DNA of 64,000 nt from a virus. A program made the position numbers and the translations under genes. Shown one piece after another: positions 1 to 26,574 of this stretch. Below the pieces are notes generated by a model, which saw nothing but the letters and a program-made list of their open reading frames with translations, made no database searches and was not told where the DNA came from. Position 1 is the stretch's first letter. Each line of letters starts with the position of its first letter. The stretch covers positions 1 to 64,000 of the IMG/VR virus record IMGVR_UViG_3300026488_000246, one strand, 5' to 3'.

Positions 1-678
1 TCATAAACTTTGATTTTTCAGTGCATTAAGCACATAATCAGGAGCTTCTGTAATAGGCTTAAGTCCTTTCAGAAACAGATAGTTCTTTACTTGCAAACTA
101 AAGAAGTCAAAACTTATTTTTGTTAATCTATCTTGTAATCTTCTTAAATCTTTCAGATTCTTCCTTTCATATTGATAAACTTCTATGGCAAACATCCTTT
201 TTCCTTTCAAGAATGAAGGAGTTCTACTTATAGCCATGAATCTAATGGATGATATAACGTCAAGATGTGGAAACTTTGATTCAAAATGTTTCCGTGCATA
301 ATTCCTGATAAGTTTCACATCATCTACATCGATAGGGCCGAATGCATACTTACAACCAACATGGATACCATGAGGAGAGAGTTCAATGAAGAAGTCTCTT
401 TTATGATTTCCATTAGTTAGTAAAACAGACTCAAGAAATGATAAGGGTTCATATTTTGAATTGCATTTATCAAAATCAAAGATAGGTTGATAATAGATAC
501 CTGTGCTATGGAAGTAGAATGGAACAACATGAATTTCTGCTTTACCACGAAGAAAGTTTATAGCTTTTTCCATAATAGATTGCTTAAAATGTGAGTAACT
601 ACGTTTGACAAATGTCATAGTAGCTGTATATTTATACCAGATAGTTAACTCATCAATGTTTGGAAGAGAGTTTGCCAT
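1..678 (-). CDS. Primase-polymerase (AEP)-fold-like protein
   Basis: 225 aa. The sequence has the motif order of archaeo-eukaryotic primase-fold enzymes: IFDFD at residues 66-70 (motif I, hDhD, metal ligands), SPHGIHV at 101-107 (motif II, sxH-like), then SSIRFMAISRTPSFLKGK, which resembles the motif III region with its R-P-S/G-x-x-x-K pattern. If correct, it would bind nucleotides and metal and could prime DNA synthesis or repair. The start has AGGAGA upstream and the ATG lies 12 bp beyond the stop of the 290-aa gene, so the two are probably co-transcribed. The family call rests on motifs read by eye; the catalytic carboxylate of motif III is not obvious, so it may be an inactive relative. 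A second protein with the same motif order lies at 28478-29236. Confidence 0.5.
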   Translation of the reverse strand: MANSLPNIDELTIWYKYTATMTFVKRSYSHFKQSIMEKAINFLRGKAEIHVVPFYFHSTGIYYQPIFDFDKCNSKYEPLSFLESVLLTNGNHKRDFFIELSPHGIHVGCKYAFGPIDVDDVKLIRNYARKHFESKFPHLDVISSIRFMAISRTPSFLKGKRMFAIEVYQYERKNLKDLRRLQDRLTKISFDFFSLQVKNYLFLKGLKPITEAPDYVLNALKNQSL

Positions 679-689
679 CTAACTATCTC

Positions 690-1562
690 CTATTCAACCA
701 TGGTTCCTGTAAGTATCATCAAACATTCAAACTTACAAAATTCACCAACACCCAAATTGAAAAGTTGTTTGTATAGAGCATTGATTGTATTATCATCTTC
801 TATTAGATATGGAAGAAGTATTTCAAAGTCATCTGGGTCAATTCCGAATAGTTCTAAAACTTCAGGTTCATTAGACAGTTTCTTCATATACGTTTCAAAA
901 TAATCCTTGAACTTATCATCCTTTACAACATCTATCAGATTTTCTACAGGTACATATCTGAATAGAGATAATAGAGCATTCAAAGACTTCTGATTATTGA
1001 GAGTTATAGAAGCAAAAGGTTGTAGATATAAGTTTCTATACTTATTATGCTGTATTACATAGAGCATAAGGATAGCTAAAGCCAATCTTGGTATATCATA
1101 TGTAGTAAAGAAATACTTGTATATGCTGAAGAATAGTTGGTATGGTCTTTCAATAACGTATATCTTATCAATAGAAAGATCTTCAAAAAATCTTTCCAAA
1201 GCTATGCCTACTAATTGCAAAGCTTTTTCTGTGGGTAAATCATCTTCATCTGTCAATATTTTGTATACTAAATCAAATACTTCTTGAGTTGAAATATTAG
1301 GATTTCTTAGATATCTTTCAACATCAGACATGGAACCAAAATCTTCAACAACATCTTCATCAACAGAGTCGTCTCCAGGATACCATTCATATTCTGGATA
1401 GTTTACATTGTTAGCTATGTCAACCTTAACATCTGGATTATAGAAATACATAGCTGGTTGAGCAGGCTTAGTTGTACTTACTTGAGGAATGGATGCTGAT
1501 GTATTAGTTTCATCAAATCTTTCCTTAGCCACTTGTTTCAACCATTCAAGATAGTATTCCAT
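690..1562 (-). CDS. Unknown acidic 290-aa protein
   Basis: Not recognised. 290 aa, start supported by AAGGAGG seven bases upstream. Residues 1-75 are low in hydrophobic residues, with a Ser/Thr/Pro-rich stretch (about 20-37) and an acidic run (DDSVDEDVVEDFG, about 64-76). The remainder is predicted mostly helical, Leu/Tyr-rich, with no membrane segment or catalytic motif I can see. It begins the cistron pair that ends with the primase-fold-like gene. A virion or assembly role is possible but unsupported. Confidence 0.75.
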   Translation of the reverse strand: MEYYLEWLKQVAKERFDETNTSASIPQVSTTKPAQPAMYFYNPDVKVDIANNVNYPEYEWYPGDDSVDEDVVEDFGSMSDVERYLRNPNISTQEVFDLVYKILTDEDDLPTEKALQLVGIALERFFEDLSIDKIYVIERPYQLFFSIYKYFFTTYDIPRLALAILMLYVIQHNKYRNLYLQPFASITLNNQKSLNALLSLFRYVPVENLIDVVKDDKFKDYFETYMKKLSNEPEVLELFGIDPDDFEILLPYLIEDDNTINALYKQLFNLGVGEFCKFECLMILTGTMVE

Positions 1563-1594
1563 TATCGTCCTCCTTGAAAAGAATTGTTTGAAAT

Positions 1595-1622
1595 AGGATG
1601 GATCCCATTAGGGACCCATCCT
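1595..1622 (-). terminator. Intrinsic terminator-like hairpin
   Basis: GGATGGATCCC and GGGACCCATCC form a stem with an ATTA loop, between the 347-aa gene stop and the 290-aa gene start on the minus strand. No long T-run follows; it matches the GC-rich hairpins that end most other units in the window. Confidence 0.7.
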
Positions 1623-2665
1623 TATTGTTGTTTTGGTTGTGGAAGTTTAGGTTGTTGATTCCTCATATTCTTTGCTACTTTGCTTAAACATTCAATAGTT
1701 TTTGGATCAACCAATACTTTACCAAATATCCTAACAGCAATTGAAGCAAGTAATGATGCAAGAACCATATCATGTTTCAAGAGTAACACCTGGAAGATTC
1801 TTGCAAAAACTTTACCTAATACATTAGATACTACAAGTTTAGCAAGCAGTCCTTTGCCTTCTGATTCTTTAATTCTTTTAAGAACCTTTTTAACTTCTTC
1901 ATACTTTGTTTTTGCAATCTTAACAGGACCGATTACAGTATTCCATATACTAGCAATGAGACCTGAATTTTCGTTTTCTTCCGTACTCGATGATGTATTT
2001 CTTGCTTGTCCAAATATTGCTTTATAAGCTTTGTTAAGTTCTATATCATTGATATCTGGAATCTTAAATTCTTTCATGTGTTTTGCAATATCATTGAGTA
2101 GTTTCTTATCGATATTAGGAAGAGTTTCAAGCTTCTTAATTACAGCATCATCAAGTAGTCCATGATAGAAGATGATTGAAAAATCAATAGCAGATGAGGC
2201 AATTACATACTCTTTTGCATAATTGAGTTTACTAGCTTTATATAAGCTTGATTGTCCAAATAAAGCTCCAAAAGATTCAAGAACTATTTCTGCTATTAAT
2301 TCAGGTTCTAAAGTTTTGAACCTCATTTTTACACAATCAATAACAGACTTTGGTTCACCTTCAATTTCAGCATCTTTTTTAAGTTTCTTTATCAGTTCAA
2401 CTAATCTTGGTTTTGTTGTCTTTTCAACAATAGCCATTACATAAGCCATAGTCTTTACTGTAGCTAGATAAGAAAGAGCTGCTACAGTATAGCGTAAAGA
2501 CCTATTATTCTTGAAAACATTAGCAGCTTCCTTAATTCCTACACCACGTATGAGCTTATTCAACCAGTAATCAGCATCTTTATTTGTAGCTACACCAAGA
2601 GCTATTGAAACTATGAAAATGTCCCATATTGAAAGTCTCCAAAACAAAAGCTTTATTCTATTCAT
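1622..2665 (-). CDS. Membrane-associated helical protein, unknown
   Basis: 347 aa, not recognised. A hydrophobic N-terminal segment (about 12-26), a second near 55-80 and a C-terminal hydrophobic region (about 285-320) suggest membrane association. The middle is Lys/Glu-rich helix. The tail is Pro/Gln/Lys-rich (PKLPQPKQQ). The start lies six bases past the stop of the beta C-half with no good Shine-Dalgarno of its own, so translational coupling to that gene is likely. Other Lys-rich helical proteins with hydrophobic patches occur in the window (53509-54582, 55343-56347), with no shared motif that I can see. Confidence 0.7.
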   Translation of the reverse strand: MNRIKLLFWRLSIWDIFIVSIALGVATNKDADYWLNKLIRGVGIKEAANVFKNNRSLRYTVAALSYLATVKTMAYVMAIVEKTTKPRLVELIKKLKKDAEIEGEPKSVIDCVKMRFKTLEPELIAEIVLESFGALFGQSSLYKASKLNYAKEYVIASSAIDFSIIFYHGLLDDAVIKKLETLPNIDKKLLNDIAKHMKEFKIPDINDIELNKAYKAIFGQARNTSSSTEENENSGLIASIWNTVIGPVKIAKTKYEEVKKVLKRIKESEGKGLLAKLVVSNVLGKVFARIFQVLLLKHDMVLASLLASIAVRIFGKVLVDPKTIECLSKVAKNMRNQQPKLPQPKQQ

Positions 2666-2670
2666 TATTG

Positions 2671-4719
2671 TTAGACCTCTAAATCTTCTGTTATCATCAT
2701 ACCAGCTATATAAGCCTTTAACATTCTATTTGATACAGGTTTGGAGAATTCAACATCTTTCATTGATGCTTCACCTTTAGAGGCAATCTCTCTTACAACC
2801 TGATATTTAGCTTTAATGTCATCAGAATGAATAGTCATGAATTCTTTGAGTATATTGTCAGCTCCCCAAGAAATAAGGGACCATGTATCAAGCTCACCTT
2901 CTCTTTGTGCTCTTTCTCCTTTATCACCAACAGGTTGCATTGTTTTGGACTTGTATCGTTTACCATAGGATCTTGCAGATGCTTTTGTATCTGCTAATTG
3001 CTCAAGTTTAAACCAGTAAACAAATCCAAACGCGACAGGATACTTTGATTTGACATTTCCAAATTCTGGAAGAGTTACGTAATCTTTAAGTTTCCAACCG
3101 TAATGATCATAGATTCTTAATACGTCATCTAAGTTTAATCCATTAACAGGTGAAGAATAAACAACCACACCATTGGCTATAAAGTCATCTATAAGTTTTT
3201 GTTTATCTTCCTTCGACATAGCATTCAACTGAGTAATCAGTTGTGATTTTATGTTGGGTTTTCTATCATATACAACAGAATAGAATTCCTTAAGAATGTT
3301 GATAGCTGTATCATATGAACCATTAGTTACAGCATCTTTAATCTTTTCTGTGATGTAGTAACAAGCTCTTGACAAGTACATTTCAATAAGCTGTCCTGGG
3401 TTCTTACGAGAGACAATACCTAGTTGGTTTGCAATCATATCGAAAGGCTTACCATCAGGATCTCTTGGCATAAGATCATCTGGTATAATTCTTGATACAA
3501 CTCCTTTATTTCCATGAAGGTTAGCAAATTTATCTCCAATTTCTGTCGGTTTTTCATATCTGTATACATATCTAATTATGACTGAATCTTTAAGCTTTTG
3601 TCCCTTATATGAAACTCCATAAGGTTCAGCTTTAAGTTTTGTTGCTGTATCTGGTTGTAATCCTAACGCTCTATATTCATTAATGGATTCTTCAGCTTCT
3701 TCTATTTGTTTTTGTATAAGAGGTAATAGCTCTGGGAAGTATTCTTTAACAAACTCTTCTGATGGAGCATAGATTTCTATAGAGAGTAAGTCGGCATCAT
3801 AATTCAATGGATAAAGTTTGTAACCACTAAAGTGTAATACATCTGGGTTAATTTCATAGTTTTCACCAGAAAGTAACTCTATCCTTGGTTTAGTCACAAC
3901 AAGAGGTTTCTTAGCTGGTACATGACCTAATTCACTTATGATAGAAACAATCTTCTCATCTTTCGTAATCTCTATATCTCTTTGATTTATATGAACAGAG
4001 ATACCCATCTCTTTAGCAGCTGATTCAGAAAGTATAATACCATCCTCGAAGTTAAATCCTCTATAAGGCATGAAAACTGTGTAAAATCTCAATCCAGCCT
4101 TATAAGCACCTTGTTCATCAAAGAAGAATTTATGTTTAGCTAATAACTGGTTTGGTTGAACTTTATCACCTTCTTCAACCAAGATATCATATTCAATAGC
4201 TACTTTTACAGTTCCTGATCCAGTTGGTCTAATATCAAATACTTCTTGTGTTCCATCTTTGTACTGTACAACAATAAAATCTTTTGTTATTCTCTTAACT
4301 ACACCCTCTTTTTTAGCTTTGATAGCAAATGTTGATGAAGACAATAATGCTGGTAATGTTTCATATCCAGATAGGATATAAGGCCTTTGTGAATGTTTTA
4401 CAGCAATCACGTGTCTTTGTTGAGAAGCTGCCATAAGAATCCTTGCAGGGTCATTAGTAGAGGCTAAAGGATTTATAGATACAGCTACGGAGTAGATATT
4501 AGTATCTTCATCCTGAGTTTTGATTACTAATTTTCCAGCTAAATTAACAGTTACAGCACCAGTTGCAAAATGTTGTACAGCTCCAATATTTTGTGAATTA
4601 TGAGAAAGTACTTTTGAATTCTGTATAGCAAAAAGATGATCAGCACTGTCTACTTCAATGTCAACCATGGTTACTTTTTGATTCAAAGGTTTAATACGTC
4701 TAACTTTAATCTTTCTCAT
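2671..4719 (-). CDS. rpoB-C: RNA polymerase beta subunit, C-terminal half, with split-intein C-part
   Basis: 682 aa. Residues 1-41 are an intein C-part: block F (VTMVDIEVDSADHLFAI, 16-32) and block G ending VLSHN, with Ser42 as the +1 nucleophile. The C-extein starts SQNIGAVQHFA, which continues the beta motif CPxDSPE found at the end of the N-half. Further on are beta signatures: GDKFANLHGNKGVVSRIIP, DMIANQLGIVSRKNPGQ (active-site region), and the C-terminal REGELDTWSLISWGA. After trans-splicing with the 5405-7936 product the mature subunit would be 742 + 641 = 1383 aa. The start is ATG with a weak AGAGGTTAG site. A terminator hairpin precedes it on the minus strand, so it may depend on readthrough or on a promoter I cannot identify. 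Confidence 0.95.
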   Translation of the reverse strand: MRKIKVRRIKPLNQKVTMVDIEVDSADHLFAIQNSKVLSHNSQNIGAVQHFATGAVTVNLAGKLVIKTQDEDTNIYSVAVSINPLASTNDPARILMAASQQRHVIAVKHSQRPYILSGYETLPALLSSSTFAIKAKKEGVVKRITKDFIVVQYKDGTQEVFDIRPTGSGTVKVAIEYDILVEEGDKVQPNQLLAKHKFFFDEQGAYKAGLRFYTVFMPYRGFNFEDGIILSESAAKEMGISVHINQRDIEITKDEKIVSIISELGHVPAKKPLVVTKPRIELLSGENYEINPDVLHFSGYKLYPLNYDADLLSIEIYAPSEEFVKEYFPELLPLIQKQIEEAEESINEYRALGLQPDTATKLKAEPYGVSYKGQKLKDSVIIRYVYRYEKPTEIGDKFANLHGNKGVVSRIIPDDLMPRDPDGKPFDMIANQLGIVSRKNPGQLIEMYLSRACYYITEKIKDAVTNGSYDTAINILKEFYSVVYDRKPNIKSQLITQLNAMSKEDKQKLIDDFIANGVVVYSSPVNGLNLDDVLRIYDHYGWKLKDYVTLPEFGNVKSKYPVAFGFVYWFKLEQLADTKASARSYGKRYKSKTMQPVGDKGERAQREGELDTWSLISWGADNILKEFMTIHSDDIKAKYQVVREIASKGEASMKDVEFSKPVSNRMLKAYIAGMMITEDLEV

Positions 4720-5386: not shown

Positions 5387-5411
5387 AGGATAGACCAAAG
5401 AGGCCTATCCT
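5387..5411 (-). terminator. Terminator hairpin after the beta N-half
   Basis: AGGATAGACC and GGCCTATCCT form a stem overlapping the last codons of the beta N-half gene on the minus strand. It separates that gene from the zincin promoter element. Confidence 0.65.
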
Positions 5412-7936
5412 ATTGCTTCAAATTCATATCTATCAGGATCTTGCATAATGACTTCTAATGGGAGTACTACATACATCTTTTGCACAGTATCATAAACAGG
5501 AAATCTATGATCCTTACTACATACGATTACTGTACCATCTTCAAGTTCAATTTCATAAGTTTCTTTGAATGAAAGTTGTTTATTCTTAACTTCCACAAGA
5601 CCCACAGAACCTTCAATCTTATCACCAGGTTGAATGTCCATTATGCGTGTTGGAATGGGATCATAATAGTTTGAATCATATTTGTAAACTATAGTATCTG
5701 GATGTAGACATTCTGGAGAGTCAACTGGACATATGGTTCCAAAATAAGTTGGATCTACATTCCTCATAGTAATTGGAACGTTTTCAGATTTTATACCACC
5801 ATAACCAGCATAAGTAACCCTTGTTACATAAGAAGATTCTATTACTGGATTAATGGCATCTACTTGTTGATATTGTGAAACAGCATCAGTCATTGTAAGA
5901 TCTTTAAGCAATGCATCCTTTGGTATCTTAATCTTCTCTTTTGTTCTTTTTTCTCCAACAGCCATAGCTTCTTTCATTCTATACTTGTATAACTCAAGGT
6001 AAAGTCTCTTATAAAGCAATACAGCAAATACTTCAACAGATCTGATTCTACGATACCTTAAATCAGTTTGTGAAGTAACTACACCACTATAAGCTAGTTG
6101 ACAAGCATACCAGAATAGTCCATGTACTGTTTCTGGAAGGTTTTCTGTTTTCAATATGTAGAATGTGAGTGGATCTATAAACCTATCAAAGTAGGATTCA
6201 ATTTGTCTAGCAAATCTATGTGAAACAAGATTACTAATGATTTCCATCCAATACTCAAAATCATCCTTTTCTGGAAATCTCTTAAGAAGTTTTAGACCAT
6301 TGATAAGAATCTTTTGTTCAGGTGATGCTTTAACAAGCTTTAGATACTTACCATCAGGAAGTTTAATATCTTCTTTTGGATCACCATCTTCTGTTAGTTC
6401 ATATTTGATTCCAAGTTGTTCTAAAGTATTTCCAAGTGACTTGAAGTAAAGAATGAAAAGTAGAATCATAGGAAGCTTTTTACCAAGCACTAAACCGTAG
6501 AATGACTTTATCTTATTCTTTGTTTCAAGAGTAACTGTAGCATTTGCAAAGTTTGTCCTGATAACAACTTCACCAGGTCTATAAGAAACAACAGGAAGTG
6601 GAAATAGTTGATGTATCAGTACTCTTTTGACACCATTAACTATAAAGTAGTTATCGTCAATTATCTTTGGAATTAACAGCTCAATCGTGTGATATTTGCC
6701 TGTATTAAGGTCTTCTATGACAATTTCAAGCATTTCTTGCTCAGTTTTGGCAATATCTCTAAGTTCAACAGGTTTCCTATCAACAGAGACTATCCTAAAC
6801 TGAAGTTTATTAAAGTACGTATTGAATACCTTGATAAAGTTTTCTAGATTTTGGAAAGCAACTTTCCTAGCTTCAATTACGTTTCCAGTTTGTGGAGGAG
6901 ATGCTACTTTCCTGACATTAGATATAACATCCTCTTTTGTAGTCTTTTCTGGAATCTGAGGCGGCTTAATCTGTATCTTTGTAAGCTCTCTTATAATAGA
7001 TTCTACTTCTTTATCAGAAACCTCTGAATCTTGTGTTATTACAGCCTTAATGGCTTTAGCTGCAATTTTCTTGATGTTTTTCTTATCTGATAGTTTAACA
7101 TTAGCAACTTCATCAGGATATGTATTTGCATATTGTCTTATGTCTAAAGATACAATCTCTCTTGTATCTTTATCAGGTATAACTTCTTTAAGCTTTGATA
7201 TAATCTTTGTTGTCTTAGAATCAATTTCATCATCTGTTGATTTATCTCTGTTAAGATATTTGATAACAGATACAAAACGACTAAGCAAAGATTCTGGTTT
7301 GCTAAAAGATTCATGTCCAGAATCATAGACAAGCATATTGATTGTATTACCAACCTTTGTTTTGAATGTAACAAAGATTTTTCCATAAGTTTCATCAAAC
7401 CAATCTTTAAATGCTTCATCATCTTTGAGCATTTTGATGATAGGATAGATCCTAAGCTTTCTTAATTCTGTTTGTGTAAAAGTTTGTGGTAAATTACTTA
7501 GATCTATGAAGTCATATACAAATCTATAATCGTATTTTTCAATGTTATCAGTTAGATTCTTCAAACAAGTTTCTACAAATTTGATGTACTTATCAGCATA
7601 TGGATATTTGTAACCCTTCTGTTCAATCCTAAATAGAGCAGGTGATATATCAATGATTACTGAACGTTTAGTCTTAAGAATGGTAGGATTCGTGTAAATT
7701 GGTTTCTTACCTTTCTTTCTTGCTTCTTTGATGATAGATGGATTAATTCTTACACCACATTGCTGTATAGGTACATATCCTATGAATGATCCTTGTATTG
7801 GACTTTCAGGACTCCATATTTGATCTATTACAAGTTTATCACCTTCTGATAAAGAAATAAGAGCTACTCCTTTAGATGGAAGTTTAACATCCTTGGATCT
7901 TGTTGTAAATGGTTTGAATTGCTGTATAAGTTTCAT
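5405..7936 (-). CDS. rpoB-N: RNA polymerase beta subunit, N-terminal half, with split-intein N-part
   Basis: 843 aa. Residues 1-742 are the N-extein, ending GTICPVDSPE, the conserved beta motif that in bacteria continues with GxNIG. Residues 743-843 are a 101-aa intein N-part: Cys743 starts block A (CLHPDTIVYKY), and block B is GTVIVCSKDHRFPVY with the conserved His. The protein stops where canonical inteins carry their endonuclease insertion, the standard split position. The partner is the 2671-4719 gene, which supplies blocks F and G. Earlier beta features include VKRVLIHQLFPLPVVSYRPG and the TYAGYGGIKSENVPITMRN region before the splice point. The start has AAGGGGAG eight bases upstream. 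It is preceded by a copy of the 50-bp element on the same strand. Confidence 0.95.
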   Translation of the reverse strand: MKLIQQFKPFTTRSKDVKLPSKGVALISLSEGDKLVIDQIWSPESPIQGSFIGYVPIQQCGVRINPSIIKEARKKGKKPIYTNPTILKTKRSVIIDISPALFRIEQKGYKYPYADKYIKFVETCLKNLTDNIEKYDYRFVYDFIDLSNLPQTFTQTELRKLRIYPIIKMLKDDEAFKDWFDETYGKIFVTFKTKVGNTINMLVYDSGHESFSKPESLLSRFVSVIKYLNRDKSTDDEIDSKTTKIISKLKEVIPDKDTREIVSLDIRQYANTYPDEVANVKLSDKKNIKKIAAKAIKAVITQDSEVSDKEVESIIRELTKIQIKPPQIPEKTTKEDVISNVRKVASPPQTGNVIEARKVAFQNLENFIKVFNTYFNKLQFRIVSVDRKPVELRDIAKTEQEMLEIVIEDLNTGKYHTIELLIPKIIDDNYFIVNGVKRVLIHQLFPLPVVSYRPGEVVIRTNFANATVTLETKNKIKSFYGLVLGKKLPMILLFILYFKSLGNTLEQLGIKYELTEDGDPKEDIKLPDGKYLKLVKASPEQKILINGLKLLKRFPEKDDFEYWMEIISNLVSHRFARQIESYFDRFIDPLTFYILKTENLPETVHGLFWYACQLAYSGVVTSQTDLRYRRIRSVEVFAVLLYKRLYLELYKYRMKEAMAVGEKRTKEKIKIPKDALLKDLTMTDAVSQYQQVDAINPVIESSYVTRVTYAGYGGIKSENVPITMRNVDPTYFGTICPVDSPECLHPDTIVYKYDSNYYDPIPTRIMDIQPGDKIEGSVGLVEVKNKQLSFKETYEIELEDGTVIVCSKDHRFPVYDTVQKMYVVLPLEVIMQDPDRYEFEAIG

Positions 7937-8118: not shown

Positions 8119-8674
8119 ATGAAAGGTCCACTTAGAAAAGCAATAGAGAAAGGAAGGTCTATATGGAACACAAAAGCTTTTGGACAAATCGAAATCTATG
8201 ATATCACACCATCGTTTGAAAAGAAATTTCGAGTTCTTATGTATTCCTAAGAATCAACCAGAAAATTCTTGTGTCATAAGAATTGAGACTAAAAATGGTT
8301 TCGTCAACAAAGTTTACATAGCTCTTGCTCAAGAATGGTTTTCAAGTAAGAAATCCAATATCATAGAGATATCAGGTGCTAGAAAGAAAATACCATTTGC
8401 GTCACTCGATAAAATCCTCTATAAAATTAGTAAGATTCCTAAAGAAGAAATCATGAACATCTTGAATAATCAAGTGTCTAAATCTTGGGTTTCAGAAGCA
8501 ACACCTGATTTTACAGATGAAAAGAAACCTAAGTGGCTTGTAACTCTTTCTTTAGTTCTTGAAATTGTAAGGAACATCCTCTATATAACGTTTACAATAT
8601 TATTCTTAAAGGCTGTATTCAAGCATCTAACTGTCAAAAGAGAGGTTCAATCTACAGAAAACAACTTGATGTGA
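8119..8674 (+). CDS. Small membrane protein, frameshifted
   Basis: Reading starts at ATG 8119 behind GAGAGGTAG and gives MKGPLRKAIEKGRSIWNTK...FEKKFRVLMYS, then stops at 8250. A second frame, open from before 8180 and running to 8674, continues naturally as CIPKNQPENSCVIRIETKNG and ends with a C-terminal membrane segment (WLVTLSLVLEIVRNILYITF). Joining needs a +1 shift near 8238-8250. The longer frame alone could start only at TTG 8180, which has no ribosome site. Either a real frameshift mutation, a sequencing error or programmed +1 shifting. Function unknown; it overlaps the next gene by ATGTGA. Confidence 0.55.
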
Positions 8675-9398
8675 AACTTTTCAGCAAAATTCAACGTCCT
8701 CTTGATGAATACTTAACGCTTTACTATGCAATAAAGAATCTTGCAACTAATAAGCATATGAATGGATTGCTTATTTATGGACCACCAGGAACAGGAAAAA
8801 CTTTTACTGTCAAATATACGTTATATAAACTTGATGTACCGTATGTACACTACAAAGGTGGAGCAAAGAATCTTGAAGATCTAGTTTCAATTCTTTATAA
8901 ACATAGAAAAGGAAAAGTAATCATTCTCGATGATTTTGATTCTGCATTAAACAATCCTGATGCTATAAATATACTTAAAGCTGCTACCGATACATATGAA
9001 ACAAGAATCATTTCATTACCAATGTACAGAGATACAGGATTTTCTGATATAGATTACCATCCATACCAGAACAATTTGTGTTTACCTCAAAGATTATCAT
9101 TATTACAAACAAACCTGAAAGTCAATTGGACAAAGCATTACTGTCGAGAATGGTTGGTATAAAAATAGCTTTTACTAATGAACAAATGTTGAAGATAATT
9201 AAGAAGGTGCTTCATACAATCCATCCTGATGTTAAGGATGAGGTCAAACTAGAGGCTCTAAACTTCATAGAAAATGAATTACTAAAGAGGTGTCCAAACG
9301 TTAGAGTTGATTTTAGACTTTTCAAGATGGTTGTTGATTTGATGCTTGTGTATCCTACAACCTGGAAGCAAATGATTTTTGATATAGTTTGCAAATAA
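8671..9398 (+). CDS. AAA+ ATPase, frameshifted
   Basis: The first frame (GTG at 8671, to 9162) carries Walker A GPPGTGKT (residues 37-44) and Walker B KVIILDDFD (81-89). The rest of the AAA+ domain continues in another frame that is open from 9048 to 9398: FVFTSKIIIITNKPE (sensor 1, polar Asn) and LDKALLSRM (arginine-finger region), then a helical lid. Joining requires a net -1 shift within about 9048-9100; there is no obvious slippery heptamer there. As the preceding gene is also shifted, this could be local sequence error or a decaying pair. An intact version would be a small P-loop ATPase of about 242 aa. Confidence 0.65.
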
Positions 9399-11331: not shown

Positions 11332-11578
11332 TAATTATCGTTTGGGGATTCGCAGCTATAAACAAATTTACTAGCATGTGGAACAACAAATTGAAATATT
11401 GTTTTTGTGGGCAAATCAACAACCACTAATATTGACTGCTAATACAAACGAGATGCATAATTCATTGTTGATTATTAGTCTATTATAATATTGCTCTTTT
11501 CCAATATAAGGAATTCAATTGAATAAACTGTTAAAGTATCAAAATGAAACAATTACTTCAATAGGAGGCTTTCAATAG
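11332..11578 (+). promoter_or_regulatory. 247-bp AT-rich leader of the beta-prime C-half
   Basis: No gene visible. It holds TATAAT at about 11482 with a poor -35 (TTCATT, spacing 17), and near the end ATCAAAATGAAACAATTAC, faintly like the tail of the 50-bp element, followed by the ribosome site AATAGGAGG. No terminator hairpin as clear as elsewhere. Confidence 0.3.
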
Positions 11579-13963
11579 ATGAATAGAATCTTTAGGTTGA
11601 CAAGAGTAGAACCAGATAAGCTATTCTATGAACCAATATGTGATGTCTATACAATGGCTATTGGTCCTGATGGTAGAATGGAACTTAAGAGAATTGAAAG
11701 TTTCTCAGTTCATAAGATGACTCAAACATACAGAATAGAGCATAAGTTGTTTGGAAGTTTTCTTGCTACAGAAGATCATAGCCTTATAGTTTATGATGCT
11801 AAGCAAAACAAAACTTTCAAAATGTCTCCTAAAGAAATTTTGGAGAAAGAAAGTTTAGATGATCTTTACTTTGTGTATCTTCCTCTTGACTCAATAGATA
11901 TTAACGAGTCATATAACATAGATGATGCAATACTAATACCTCTTTCTGAAGTTAACATTAAGAAAGATGACATACGAGATACATATGACTTTACAATACA
12001 AGATTATCAAACTTTTGCTATTAATAATGGTCTGTTTGTACAAGATACGGTAGCTGTATATATGCCTTTGACTGTTGAAGCTCAAAAGGAAGCTAAACAG
12101 AAGATGTTTAGAAAGACTAAATCTGTTGCCACAGGTGGTTCTCTTTTTGAGTTATCACAAGGAATGATTCTTGGTCTATATCTGCTTACAAAGGATGATA
12201 GACCTTCAAAACAAATAAGCTTCAGACCAAAATCATTTGACTTTGAATACCTTTTCAATCTGATTAAAGAAGTTCCAGATTATGCTTACATTGATGTAGT
12301 TTACAATGGTCCTAAGACTGATCGTCCAATTAAAACTACATTAGGACGAGTTTTGGTAAACCAAGCTATACCAAACCAAGTACCATTCTTTGATTTTGTT
12401 TGGAGAAAGAAAAACATTAAGAAAGTTTTTGATACATTAGTTAAGTATCTTGACGATAATGAAATGATCGTTACATATGACAAACTTAGAACTCTTGGGT
12501 TTGAAGCTGCATCTCGATTTGCTATATCATTTCCAATTGATGAAATGAAAATTCCTCTTGACCTAAAGAAAGAAGCAGAAAAACTTAAAGAAATGGACCC
12601 TGACTCAGGTATGAAGTATATCAATAATGTATTGCTTCCTAAACTTAAAGAGTATGTTAAGAAGCATTATCCACAAGTTTATGCAATATTTGATTCAGGT
12701 GCTAGAGGTTCTTGGTCAGACTTGATGCAAATGGTTCTTGTTAAAGGTTATGTTGAAGATGCAGAAGGAAAAGTTGTTAAAGTGCCAGTTGCTAAAGGAT
12801 TTGTTGATAATCTAAATGCTATTGAAGCATTCATCATATCACCTACAGCTAGAGCAGGAATAGCTAACAGGTCTATTAGGACTGCTGAAGGTGGTTATCT
12901 TACAAGAAGATTAGTTAAAGCAGCAGCTAATATAAAAATCAACTTTAACTTGAAAGACTGTAAAACTGATAGATTCCTTGAAATCAAAATCAAAGATGAA
13001 GATTGGGCTAAAGCAGTTATTGGAAGATATCTGGCAGATGGTACTCTAATTACTGACGAGAATTACAAAGATTTGATAGGACAAACAATACAACTTAGAT
13101 CTCCAATCTTTTGTAAATCAGAAAGGATATGTCTTACTTGTTATGGTGAACTACATAAACTTCTTACATCAGATAATATAGGAACACAATCTGCTCAAAT
13201 TGTTGGTGAGCGTGGAACTCAGCTTATTATGAAAACTTTCCATACGGGTGGTCTTGCAGAAACCAAAGGTATTCCACAAATCATTGAAAAAGATAACCCA
13301 AACATCAAACAAGAAAAAATGTCCATCATTGTTGAGAGACCATGTAAAGTAGTTATATCTAAAGAAACAGCAGATTATAAGCTATTTGAAGATAGAGTTG
13401 TTTTACAATCTGGTTTAGCTGTTATCTACTTCAAAGATGGAACCTATTACGAAATAGATCTTCAAGAAGGTGATTACGCAATTGAATTCAAAAACTTCTT
13501 AGATATGAAATCAGATGAACATGGTGTCAAACTTCTATATGATGCTGGTCAAGAAATAGGTGAATTAGAGCTTATGTCAGAAACATTTGGATTGGTATTA
13601 CAAAGAGCCAACAGACTATTTGAAAGAAGAGCATGCAAAGACTGTGATATATCAAAAACACTTGAAGAAATTTTTGAGCTTTATAAGTCAACAGGAAGAA
13701 AACTTATTCATTTTGAAGTTGTATTATCAAATATGGTTAGAGCAAAATCTAATCTTTATGTACCATTTAGGCTTTCCAATGATAAAGAGTATACAATCAT
13801 TGGAATCTCTCAAGTTCCATTCTACACTTCCCCACTATTGGCATTAGCATTCCAGAATGTCGGTAAAGCTATTGAAACTGGATTATTAGCACCTGACGAT
13901 ATCAAAGTAGGTGAAACTGAATTTGAGAAAATTTTACTTGGTGAATTTACAAAGGAAAAATAG
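11579..13963 (+). CDS. rpoC-C: RNA polymerase beta-prime subunit, C-terminal half, with atypical split-intein C-part
   Basis: 794 aa. Residues 1-156 are an unusually long intein C-part that contains block B (FLATEDHSLIVYD, 61-73), block F (DTYDFTIQDYQTFAI, 134-148) and block G (NNGLFVQD, 149-156); only block A is missing, so its partner must be very short. The intein ends Gln-Asp instead of the usual His-Asn, and the +1 residue is Thr157. The C-extein TVAVYMPLTVEAQKEA aligns to the sequence right after the catalytic NADFDGD loop. Further beta-prime signatures: bridge-helix region (GARGSWSDLMQMV), ARAGIANRSIRTAEGGYLTR, zinc-site RSPIFCKSERICLTCYG, and trigger loop GERGTQLIMKTFHTGG. The N-half is not in this window. 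Start ATG behind AATAGGAGG. Confidence 0.95.
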   Translation: MNRIFRLTRVEPDKLFYEPICDVYTMAIGPDGRMELKRIESFSVHKMTQTYRIEHKLFGSFLATEDHSLIVYDAKQNKTFKMSPKEILEKESLDDLYFVYLPLDSIDINESYNIDDAILIPLSEVNIKKDDIRDTYDFTIQDYQTFAINNGLFVQDTVAVYMPLTVEAQKEAKQKMFRKTKSVATGGSLFELSQGMILGLYLLTKDDRPSKQISFRPKSFDFEYLFNLIKEVPDYAYIDVVYNGPKTDRPIKTTLGRVLVNQAIPNQVPFFDFVWRKKNIKKVFDTLVKYLDDNEMIVTYDKLRTLGFEAASRFAISFPIDEMKIPLDLKKEAEKLKEMDPDSGMKYINNVLLPKLKEYVKKHYPQVYAIFDSGARGSWSDLMQMVLVKGYVEDAEGKVVKVPVAKGFVDNLNAIEAFIISPTARAGIANRSIRTAEGGYLTRRLVKAAANIKINFNLKDCKTDRFLEIKIKDEDWAKAVIGRYLADGTLITDENYKDLIGQTIQLRSPIFCKSERICLTCYGELHKLLTSDNIGTQSAQIVGERGTQLIMKTFHTGGLAETKGIPQIIEKDNPNIKQEKMSIIVERPCKVVISKETADYKLFEDRVVLQSGLAVIYFKDGTYYEIDLQEGDYAIEFKNFLDMKSDEHGVKLLYDAGQEIGELELMSETFGLVLQRANRLFERRACKDCDISKTLEEIFELYKSTGRKLIHFEVVLSNMVRAKSNLYVPFRLSNDKEYTIIGISQVPFYTSPLLALAFQNVGKAIETGLLAPDDIKVGETEFEKILLGEFTKEK

Positions 13964-16452: not shown

Positions 16453-17712
16453 ATGGACAGAAACAAGTTAGCAGAGCTAGCAAAAGCTTACATTACAACA
16501 TCAGGAAAGAAAAGGTTCTACATCTTCAAAGAGATTGAGCCATTTCTTTCATCTCTCCAAATTAGAAATCTTTTCAAAGATGACGGAACGTATAACACGT
16601 ATGATGGATCTTTGTCTGCTGAGCAAAAACTTTTCATTTGCCAGCAACTCGCAGAAGGTCATTTTACTTTCGAAATGCCTCTTTGTCCAGCATGTAAAAA
16701 GCTACTTAGACGTGATCCTTTCAAGGAAGATTCTATCTGTTCTTCTAAATCCCAAACATGTAATACATGGCTTATGAGGCATAAGAATCAACAACTGAAA
16801 ACAAAACAAGATAGCTATTCTAGAGTAAGAGTTGCAGCATCTAGAATATTAGATACGGAAGACATTGAGACCATTGCAAAAAAGCGTTTGTCTGATGATA
16901 AAGGTGGATACTATTCTGCAGCTATTGCTCTTGCAATAGAGAATGGAACTCTTCATATTGAGAATCTACCAGAAAATTGGAAGAGTATGAAACGTTTAGT
17001 TACTGAATGGGTTGCAAAAAGAATCGTTGAGAATCAACCATTAACATGGCCAACATGCAAGAATTGTGGTAAGTTACTTAAAAATCCACTTGGAACATTC
17101 TGCAGTGCTTATTGTAGCAATACATACAAAGCTAAAGTAAGAAAACAGTTGAAAGATAAGCAATTGGCAAGTTATACGACGGAGACTCACTTTGAAAACA
17201 TACTTAAACACAATAACATCCGTTATCAGAGACAAGTAAAGATTGGCCAATATATCGTTGATTTCCTTCTACCAGACTTCAATATGATTGTAGAAATTGA
17301 TGGTATTCAGCATTATATGTATCATTCGGGTTTCAAAGATTTGAGTAAAACTGAATTTCTCAATAAGCAAGGATTCAAAGTTGTAAGAATACCATTCTAC
17401 ATTCCATTAGAGCAGAGATTTTTGGATGCTTATTTTGATCAACCAAAACTTAAAGCTATTATGGATAACATTGATTGGTTAGGATTCAAGTACATTACAC
17501 AGGATGTTTGGTTATGTGGAAGCAATGCAATAAACTTTGTTAAGACACTTCAGTTTCTGACTTCAAAAGGATTAACAAGGGATGTAAATACGATACTTCA
17601 AACAGCATTTCAACATAAACATGTTATCCTAGATAGCATATTTTATGAAGTAGATTCTCCTTTAAAGAATCTTAGTGTTATTGAATCCAAGCTCTCTAAG
17701 ATCTTTGGATAA
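16453..17712 (+). CDS. Vsr/EDxHD-type homing endonuclease
   Basis: 419 aa. The catalytic domain is at about residues 241-320: ETHFENILKHNNIRYQRQVK, then YIVDFLLPDF (Asp270/Asp275), IVEIDGIQHY (Asp283, His287) and KVVRIPFY, the layout of very-short-patch-repair-like EDxHD nucleases. Two zinc-ribbon-like Cys4 modules precede it: CPACKK with downstream C96/C103, and CKNCGK with FCSAYC (202-221). The family is known from fractured phage genes and group I introns (for example the intron enzyme I-Bth0305I). It is free-standing, with its own promoter and an AAAAAGGAGG site, directly downstream of the fractured capsid gene. Inference: it mobilises the capsid intron/fracture. The C-terminal 100 aa probably bind DNA. 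Confidence 0.8.
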   Translation: MDRNKLAELAKAYITTSGKKRFYIFKEIEPFLSSLQIRNLFKDDGTYNTYDGSLSAEQKLFICQQLAEGHFTFEMPLCPACKKLLRRDPFKEDSICSSKSQTCNTWLMRHKNQQLKTKQDSYSRVRVAASRILDTEDIETIAKKRLSDDKGGYYSAAIALAIENGTLHIENLPENWKSMKRLVTEWVAKRIVENQPLTWPTCKNCGKLLKNPLGTFCSAYCSNTYKAKVRKQLKDKQLASYTTETHFENILKHNNIRYQRQVKIGQYIVDFLLPDFNMIVEIDGIQHYMYHSGFKDLSKTEFLNKQGFKVVRIPFYIPLEQRFLDAYFDQPKLKAIMDNIDWLGFKYITQDVWLCGSNAINFVKTLQFLTSKGLTRDVNTILQTAFQHKHVILDSIFYEVDSPLKNLSVIESKLSKIFG

Positions 17713-19461: not shown

Positions 19462-20112
19462 ATGAAACTTACACAAGAATTCTACACACCAAGAGAAGTA
19501 GCTGAATTGATTGGTGTTTCACCAGATACAATTAGAATCTGGATTAACAATGGAACTATTTCGAGTGAGCATGTTATTCGGTTAAAAACTGGGAGAATCA
19601 AGATTACACGACAAGGGGTAATGAATCTTCTATCACAAAAAGGTATTGATGTTGAAAAGAAAACTGTAGTTTATGCAAGAGAAAGGTCCTCTCATCAGAA
19701 AGAAAGTTTAAAGAAGCAAGTAGATGCTTTAATAGATTGGGCAAATCATAACGGATATCGAGTTGATGAAGTCATAACAGATTTAGCATCAGGCATGAAT
19801 TTCAATAGACCTGGATTGCATAAACTTATTGATATGGCAGAAAAAGGTGAATTGCGTTATGTAATCATAGCTTATAAAGACAGACTAGCTAGATTTGGAT
19901 TTGAATTCATACAATGGTTGCTCAACAAACATGGATGTGAAGTTATAATTGTCAATCAGTTAGAAGACAAACCAAATTCTCAATCTGAGATCGTAGAAGA
20001 TATGATTGCTATCATTCATTATTTTGCAATGAAATTATATGGAGCAAGAAGTTATAAAAGAAAAGCAAAAACCATTGAGGAGTGTATACTCAATGAAGCT
20101 AAGAAGAGTTGA
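19462..20112 (+). CDS. tnpA: IS607-family serine recombinase TnpA
   Basis: 216 aa. N-terminal MerR-like helix-turn-helix: FYTPREVAELIGVSPDTIRI (residues 7-26), which directs DNA binding. The catalytic serine-recombinase domain follows: VVYARERSSHQKESLKKQVD with the nucleophilic Ser, ITDLASGMNFNRPGLHKLID, and IIAYKDRLARFGFE (the conserved Arg pair). It cuts and rejoins DNA through a Ser-DNA intermediate to move the element. ATG behind AAGGAGGG. Full-length with all key residues visible, so probably active. The tnpB start overlaps its last 20 nt. Confidence 0.92.
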   Translation: MKLTQEFYTPREVAELIGVSPDTIRIWINNGTISSEHVIRLKTGRIKITRQGVMNLLSQKGIDVEKKTVVYARERSSHQKESLKKQVDALIDWANHNGYRVDEVITDLASGMNFNRPGLHKLIDMAEKGELRYVIIAYKDRLARFGFEFIQWLLNKHGCEVIIVNQLEDKPNSQSEIVEDMIAIIHYFAMKLYGARSYKRKAKTIEECILNEAKKS

Positions 20113-21472
20113 TAAATTCAGGATTAAGTACAATGAGTTACAACATGCATATTTTACTACAGTTGCTAAACGTTATACATTTTGCTTAAACCTTTTATCC
20201 GAATGGTTGTACTTCTACATCAATAAGAGGAATCAAGAATGGTTTGATTTGCTTGAATATAAAATATTTAGAAACGATTATTCAATGATGAAAGGTTTTC
20301 CTTACAAGCTTTATATGCATTTCAAGAATCAGCTACCTACTTCAATGAATCAGAATCTGTTTCGAGAAGCATTACAGATTGCTAGATCCAGGAGATCAAT
20401 GGACAAAATCTATCATTCTAGAATTTCCTATTTTGGCTTTACCTATACGAATATAAGTAAATCTAACTCTAATGTGTTTCTACTTCCAAGATCCAAATAT
20501 CTTCGTAAATGCTTTCCAAAGGTTTATCTAACAATACCTCAATCCGTTATAAACCATCTTAAATCCGAAACGAATAGATACCATTTTCAGTTTCGTTTCA
20601 TCAATGGCCAATGGTGGTGTTATATTAACAAGCAAATCAATGTGCAACATGATAATACCACAAAAGAACGAATATTTGCTGCTATAGATCTGAATATGAA
20701 TGATATTGCATTTATTGATGAAGTTACAAAACAACCAGTTCTTCTGTCTTTAAAGCATATCATATGGAAATCGATAAAACTTTTCAAGAAGTATCAAAAG
20801 GCTCAATCATGCAATAACAACAAACTTTCAAAGGTTTACAGATACAAAATTAAACGTCTCTTTGAGGAGACATTCAAACTTTATGCAATACGCATCATTC
20901 AACATTGTAAATCTGTTGGTGTAAACAGATTGGCTATCGGAAGTGTAAAACCTACATTATCAAAGAAGGAACTTTCCAGAATGTTAAGACGTCTTTGGAA
21001 TATGATTCCATGGACATACTTTATTGACTATCTGAAACATTATGGAGAGAAATTTGGGATCTTTGTTTACAAAATTAATGAGGCTTATACATCCAAAGCA
21101 TCAGCTCTTGATAATGATCCTCTTCCAGAAAGAAAGTCTTCAATAAGTTTTTCAGGTAGAAGAATTTCTCGTGGTTTGTACCAGACATCTGATGGTACTG
21201 TCATTCATGCAGATGTCAATGCATCCGCAAATATTCTCAGAAGGGCTGCACAAAGATTCAATAAAGCTATTACTTTTACAAAGAACCAACTCTCTGCAGT
21301 CAGGAGAGTTGGTTGTCAGTTGTTGAATCAAATGAAACTTTCAGAAGCAATTGAATTTAAGAAACTCAAAGATTACATAGCCAACCCAGGCAAGTTCTAT
21401 ACAGAACTTGTCAGGTTGGTAAAGAGCAGTCACCGCGTACCTGCATTCCAGAACTTCATGCTTTCTAATTGA
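20093..21472 (+). CDS. tnpB: TnpB RNA-guided nuclease, IS607 type
   Basis: 459 aa from ATG 20093 (GAGGAG ten bases upstream; a longer frame from 20039 lies inside tnpA). RuvC motif I is AAIDLNMNDIAFID; the final Asp motif is GTVIHADVNASANILRR. The usual motif II Glu is replaced (LAIGSVKP), and Glu in NEAYTSKAS is a candidate substitute. The zinc-ribbon cysteines are absent: the region reads ALDNDPLPE...FSGRRISRGLYQTSDG, a Cys-less variant seen in a known subset of OrfB/TnpB proteins. It would use the RNA encoded at its 3' end to cut DNA at the donor site and favour element retention. Confidence 0.9.
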   Translation: MKLRRVDKFRIKYNELQHAYFTTVAKRYTFCLNLLSEWLYFYINKRNQEWFDLLEYKIFRNDYSMMKGFPYKLYMHFKNQLPTSMNQNLFREALQIARSRRSMDKIYHSRISYFGFTYTNISKSNSNVFLLPRSKYLRKCFPKVYLTIPQSVINHLKSETNRYHFQFRFINGQWWCYINKQINVQHDNTTKERIFAAIDLNMNDIAFIDEVTKQPVLLSLKHIIWKSIKLFKKYQKAQSCNNNKLSKVYRYKIKRLFEETFKLYAIRIIQHCKSVGVNRLAIGSVKPTLSKKELSRMLRRLWNMIPWTYFIDYLKHYGEKFGIFVYKINEAYTSKASALDNDPLPERKSSISFSGRRISRGLYQTSDGTVIHADVNASANILRRAAQRFNKAITFTKNQLSAVRRVGCQLLNQMKLSEAIEFKKLKDYIANPGKFYTELVRLVKSSHRVPAFQNFMLSN

Positions 21473-26130: not shown

Positions 26131-26574
26131 ATGAGTGCACAACCTGAAAAACACGAAATCTTTGATTGGGAGCTACCTTTCAAATTTGGTGAGAATGAAT
26201 TTGAAACTGAAAGATGGTGTGTCTTAGAAGAGTTTCATATGCCGTTACTTTTCATATCTGAGAGTGGAAACTTGCTATTGCTTCTAGAAGAAGGAGATGA
26301 CTACGAAGATGAATGGTTGTTAATTAAGTGTCCTATAGCTTTAGCTATTCAATATTTAGCTGGTTCAAAAAGCTTACATGATTTGATTTTCAATTCAGCA
26401 ACAGATGTTTATCGTGTGCTTTGGAACGTTAACAAAGATCACCTTGATGTTGTAGAGAAAATTTCTTCAGACAAACGTTTGGAGTATCTTATAGCAGGGC
26501 TTGACTTAACCTCAAAAATTTATAGGACCAACAAAACAGAATCTCTTTTGAAGTTTTTCACTCAAGAGGTTTAG
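26131..26574 (+). CDS. Unknown 147-aa acidic protein
   Basis: Not recognised. ATG behind AAGGAGTT. Rich in Glu/Asp/Trp, with LLLLEEGDDYEDEWLL in the middle; no membrane segment. It stands alone between two terminator hairpins, so it is its own transcription unit. Confidence 0.65.
   Translation: MSAQPEKHEIFDWELPFKFGENEFETERWCVLEEFHMPLLFISESGNLLLLLEEGDDYEDEWLLIKCPIALAIQYLAGSKSLHDLIFNSATDVYRVLWNVNKDHLDVVEKISSDKRLEYLIAGLDLTSKIYRTNKTESLLKFFTQEV

Follow-up and report, generated by a model that had tools for sequence, protein, structure and literature searches.

How does a phage come by a complete RNA polymerase beta' subunit when the gene is broken at the catalytic loop? The question is raised by an open reading frame (ORF) at 11579-13963 (+) in a stretch of 64,000 nucleotides (the window), which comprises bases 1-64000 of IMG/VR virus record IMGVR_UViG_3300026488_000246, a linear record of 147,462 bases. 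The ORF encodes 794 residues and is the C-half of a phage RNA polymerase beta' subunit. Its N-terminal part is, very probably, the C-terminal fragment (IntC) of a split class 1-type intein that interrupts beta' between NADFDGD and TVAV and is predicted to join the two halves by trans-splicing. We regard this as a variant of the atypically split intein, sited at the beta' catalytic loop of a large bacterial virus.

The polymerase part of the ORF (the C-extein, 12047..13960, +) runs from directly after NADFDGD to the C-terminus of beta', and the reading frame is intact through GERGTQLIMKTFHTGG. Pfam detects beta' domains 3 and 5 from residue 184 on (RNA_pol_Rpb1_3, E 6.2e-08; RNA_pol_Rpb1_5, E 5.9e-21), with a sub-threshold match to domain 4. 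An AGGAGG ribosome-binding motif and an in-frame TAG stand immediately before the ATG (11560..11578, +), indicating that the C-half is the start of a gene and not the remainder of a longer ORF; upstream lie a non-coding gap and then an unrelated ORF. Intact phage beta' proteins generally read NADFDGD-T-V/M-A, for example NADFDGD-TVAIHLPL in Rhizobium phage Y65 and NADHDGD-TMAVHL in a Vibrio phage, and the window junction reads ...NNGLFVQD-TVAVYMPL. Since TVA... is found right behind NADFDGD in the intact proteins, the C-extein starts directly after this motif, as the initial annotation had claimed, and residues 1-156 are an insert. The NADFDGD loop carries the catalytic aspartates of multisubunit polymerases; on sequence comparison, the cut in beta' lies right behind it.

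The insert (11579..12046, +; 156 residues) contains what is expected of a class 1 Hint intein: a Hint fold, the block B Thr and His, the block F Asp, and D156 followed by a +1 Thr. Read directly, the Thr-x-x-His of block B is T64-E65-D66-H67 (11768..11779, +), and D66, H67 and S68 are nearly invariant across relatives (alignment A3; another alignment, A2, which mixed separate N and C pieces, was poor and was left unused). The block F residue is D137. Block G ends V154-Q155-D156, and the +1 nucleophile is Thr157 (12047-12049), which puts the C-terminal splice junction at 12041..12049 (+). The Pfam Intein_splicing match is weak (residues 34-154, profile positions 33-153 of 155, E = 3e-4, under the curated cut-off). 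We built a family profile from 15 inteins that other phages carry at this site, which were aligned with the window sequence before the latter was removed. Residues 1-156 matched this profile with 86.6 bits (E = 5.7e-26) over positions 32-205 of 205, the sole match above the inclusion threshold among the 578 ORFs of the record; the next ORF scored 7.7 bits. In a shuffle control, the best of about 2,000 shuffled versions of residues 1-156 reached 10.7 bits, compared with 91.9 for the real sequence. A single-sequence PDB search gave nothing useful. An AlphaFold2 model of residues 1-156, built from a 13-row alignment, has the Hint fold (predicted local distance difference test score, pLDDT, 82.8) and its top PDB matches are inteins, the best being the Aes123 PolB1 split intein (9hth, E 1.5e-06, prob 1.00). 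Residues, profile and fold thus bear out the earlier description of a 156-residue IntC with blocks B, F and G and no block A, the first 31 profile positions, including block A, not being covered. A typical split, between blocks B and F, was ruled out for the window because one uninterrupted chain carries B, F and G. The arrangement is that of an atypical split, with block B inside an IntC that has its own start codon.

Further support for a break near the N-terminus is provided by two phages in which both halves are present. In the first (G002/L144, a 159-kb record), the beta' N-half ends NADFDGD-SVVGTVTLYNEEGKEVFKGHLSKLFEQHCQTLSHHLNKTTERRS-stop, a Ser tail of 44 residues, and is followed by a 212-residue ORF and then the C-half. 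The intein part of that C-half starts MNNEIWFRQTKFVEHKDGRVVLHYTP, closely resembling MNRIFRLTRVEPDKLFYEP of the window, and ends FVFD-T; the pattern NGLFVxDTV had this locus as its only true match, plus two chance matches. In the second (G001/L213, a 69.7-kb record), the N-half ends NADFDGD-SVAGDTYVIVQDTDGTVRLVKIKDVE-stop, a 26-residue Ser tail with the stop at 26,143 (+). The C-half, with the junction NILVYD-T, is at 1-1887 (-) on the same contig, so that the halves are on opposite strands with their splice junctions about 25 kb apart. GGAGG motifs precede the C-half ATG in both phages. Profile, fold and these 44- and 26-residue tails support the view that the window intein is split near its N-terminus, that a short N-fragment is missing and that the break is right behind the catalytic loop. 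They also make a distant partner with a tail of about 26-45 residues a concrete expectation for the window phage. N-halves with such tails are the sort of partner that the initial annotation had proposed to search for.

How the loop would be completed can be set out in a few steps. A beta' N-half encoded outside the record, ending in NADFDGD and an N-terminal intein fragment (IntN) with block A, would meet the 156-residue IntC. An ester or thioester would form at the NADFDGD junction, and the NADFDGD end would be transferred to Thr157. Cyclisation of Asp156 would then free the intein, and with NADFDGD joined to TVAVYMPL the loop would be complete. Inteins that end in Asp are described as splicing by the standard mechanism, the Asp cyclising in step 3 (PMC4031507). 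Trans-splicing of the beta' halves is the likely mechanism as far as sequence can tell, and by analogy with the two phages above the missing IntN should have about 26-45 residues, begin with Ser or Cys and carry block A after NADFDGD. If this is correct, the catalytic loop of the phage RNA polymerase does not exist until two proteins have been spliced together.

Several observations weigh against this interpretation. The initial annotation had suggested that NADFDGD followed by a short Cys/Ser tail might be found in the rest of the genome, and no beta' N-half turned up in the 147-kb record (linear, probably partial). The record has no PF00623 match and no catalytic-loop motif in six-frame translation save one stop-ridden YDGD frame, and nothing in it was matched by tblastn when the N-regions of six beta' proteins or N-halves served as queries; scans of viral contigs did not recover the N-half of this phage either. 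That N-half is not in the record, so trans-splicing in this phage is a prediction. The record is probably partial, since it is linear and has no Terminase_6N match despite genes for tail sheath, baseplate, DNA polymerase, ribonucleotide reductase and topoisomerase, although a divergent terminase may be present. The IntC also has neither the penultimate His nor the usual block F His, both of which are likewise missing across the aligned family members. Finally, AR9-like phages show that beta' can function in two pieces, which means that ligation may be dispensable.

This last point leads to the possibility that beta' is an unspliced two-chain subunit, with the intein domain a non-splicing leftover and the chains held together non-covalently. 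The polymerases of the AR9/phiKZ type resemble the present one in being phage multisubunit enzymes with beta and beta' in pieces, and AR9 gp264, the C-terminal beta' piece, begins to align about 86 profile positions beyond the loop (no intein sequence precedes it in the alignment), indicating that assembly is possible for a beta' interrupted in this area; that the N-half of the window phage is unseen fits as well. However, the window intein keeps T64, H67, D137, D156 and T157, with block B nearly invariant in the family, where a dead remnant should decay. A 156-residue domain beside the Mg-binding loop would also be expected to block it. We therefore consider a two-chain beta' unlikely. Very unlikely, in our judgement, is an IntC that merely cuts itself off at Asp156/Thr157, leaving two free extein chains. 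Side-cleavage is a common failure mode of inteins, which counts in favour of such an outcome, and control might be looser without the penultimate His. Nevertheless, Ser, Thr or Cys, the ligation nucleophile, is kept at +1 in all collected inteins, whereas intein-free beta' proteins also have Gln or Ala there.

Could the split instead be an artefact, the N-part of a contiguous gene having been lost in assembly? The contig is metagenome-derived and has no N-half. Against this stand the ribosome-binding motif, ATG and preceding stop of the C-half, the non-coding gap and unrelated ORF upstream, the lack of any beta' N sequence in the record and the same architecture, with both halves, in G001 and G002. 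An artefact is the least probable of the three explanations and highly improbable in itself. A split-intein fragment that takes part in trans-splicing accounts best for the locus.

The window intein belongs to a family. Searches with the C-half as query, full-length and alignment-based, returned nothing or one distant locus (L020). Relatives were gathered by scanning DNA for patterns that encode NADFDGD and then Cys or Ser, with NADxDGD and MKTFHTGG patterns being more productive than full-length searches; a VQDTVAV pattern was dropped as too loose. Three architectures occur at one beta' site. Contiguous inteins are found in L011, L013, L014, L017, L147, L149, L150, L157, L204, L206, L209 and L210, among others, and most carry an inserted domain that looks LAGLIDADG-like by eye. 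Inteins split between B and F are found in L143, L154, L208, L211, L214 and G011, and those split near the N-terminus in the window, G002 and G001. The initial annotation had called such an arrangement rare in RNA polymerase; inteins at this beta' site are not isolated, with 24 other loci having a readable intein end. We found no description of inteins at this site in the open-access literature, the sole type searched.

The unusual Gln-Asp/Thr end that had been pointed out in the window was confirmed, and the terminal Asp is no oddity of this phage: the intein ends in [QWYF]-D before T, S or C in 22 of the 24 other same-site loci, a few of which are almost identical copies. The Gln-Asp/Thr end therefore characterises the family. 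Also inserted at this position in beta', the inteins of L167 and L168 end Ser-Asn before Thr. L014:8800-12741 encodes a beta' with two inteins, one at NADFDGD (VWD/T) and one just before TFHTGG (HN/T). In L219, L221 and L233 the beta' chain stops after TFHTGG and the last ~240 residues are in a separate ORF; no intein was seen there. In bacterial and archaeal genomes, the NADFDGD[CS] pattern gave no atypically split case and returned mostly unrelated proteins and beta' with a +1 Ser. In the beta' genes of L238, L242, L255 and L257 (records of Zixiibacteriota, Cloacimonadota and gammaproteobacteria), NADFDGD is followed immediately by Ser rather than by the usual Gln.

Compared with the other inteins at this site, the window intein shares the insertion point, a homologous splicing domain and the [QWYF]-D|[TSC] end, but those inteins either form one chain that includes an inserted domain or have their break between B and F, whereas the window intein is continuous there and cut near the N-terminus. 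With known atypically split inteins it shares a break near the N-terminus between A and B and a long IntC with B, F and G on one chain. It differs from them in its host, the beta' catalytic loop, in its terminal Asp and in having its nearest kin in the intein tree among B/F-split inteins at the same site. The IntN of its relatives, at 26 and 44 residues, also differ from the ~15-25 residues of known atypically split inteins (PMC12707363). Asp as the last residue is shared with the inteins with C-terminal Gln or Asp of Amitai 2004, as summarised in PMC4031507; relative to that summary, the difference here is that Asp is common to nearly all of one allelic family in which the penultimate His is also lost. 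The family provides natural Asp-terminated, mostly Ser1 split inteins with a short IntN, which may be of use in protein labelling.

In this polymerase the beta subunit is split as well. Its N-half (5405..7936, -) ends CPVDSPE followed by a Cys1 IntN of 101 residues, and its C-half (2671..4719, -) starts with a 41-residue IntC that ends His-Asn before Ser, a break in the usual split place; an unrelated 175-residue ORF lies between the two. Because beta too is split by an intein, two separate joining reactions would be needed for this polymerase.

The presence of contiguous, B/F-split and N-proximally split inteins at one insertion site makes the origin and movement of split points directly testable. 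In a host-gene tree made by a quick method, the three N-proximally split cases fall in three places. In the intein tree, the window and G002 group with six B/F-split inteins (support 100/98) and G001 groups with contiguous ones, and a single clade of the window, G002 and G001 is weakly rejected (approximately unbiased, AU, test, p 0.03; long branches). The nearest intein relatives of the window have the B/F split, so members of one family are not all cut at the same point. The intein-tree placement and the AU result suggest that the N-proximal split arose at least twice, which is likely from these sequences and, given the long branches, not proven. More tentatively, the split point itself may have moved: the window and G002 inteins could go back to ancestors with a B/F split, in which the pieces were fused again at the endonuclease site before a new break formed near the N-terminus, giving a polymerase of four chains and two different trans-splicing reactions, one of which forms the catalytic loop with an Asp-terminated intein. 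We think this doubtful on balance. Descent of the window and G002 inteins from a contiguous ancestor is the plainer alternative.

An ORF with a DUF559 (Vsr-like nuclease) domain is located 2.5 kb downstream of the beta' C-half (16453..17712, +; PF04480 E 1.1e-14) and is the only DUF559 match in the record. It is a candidate free-standing homing endonuclease, and any link to the intein is hypothetical. The two halves of the split beta' gene of L154 are separated by an ORF carrying DUF7487 and DUF559. Dassa et al. 2009, as related in PMC6892783, reported fractured genes that have split inteins together with Vsr-like nucleases. Going by that account, the present case is similar in having split inteins in large phages and a DUF559-type ORF nearby, between the halves in L154 and close to the C-half in the window, but differs in host gene and split site. 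Homing endonucleases do target phage polymerase genes, as the phiPA3 intron endonuclease nicks the phiKZ polymerase gene gp178 (PMC11620839).

Elsewhere in the window, a serine resolvase and a TnpB-like protein (Cas12f1-like TNB domain) are encoded side by side at 19462-21472 (+) in an IS607-like layout, and a second, similar-looking resolvase/TnpB pair is present outside the window at record positions 122220-124182. An AAA ATPase ORF at 8671-9398 (+) seems to be broken by a frame change near 9078-9162, with its apparent halves in two overlapping frames.
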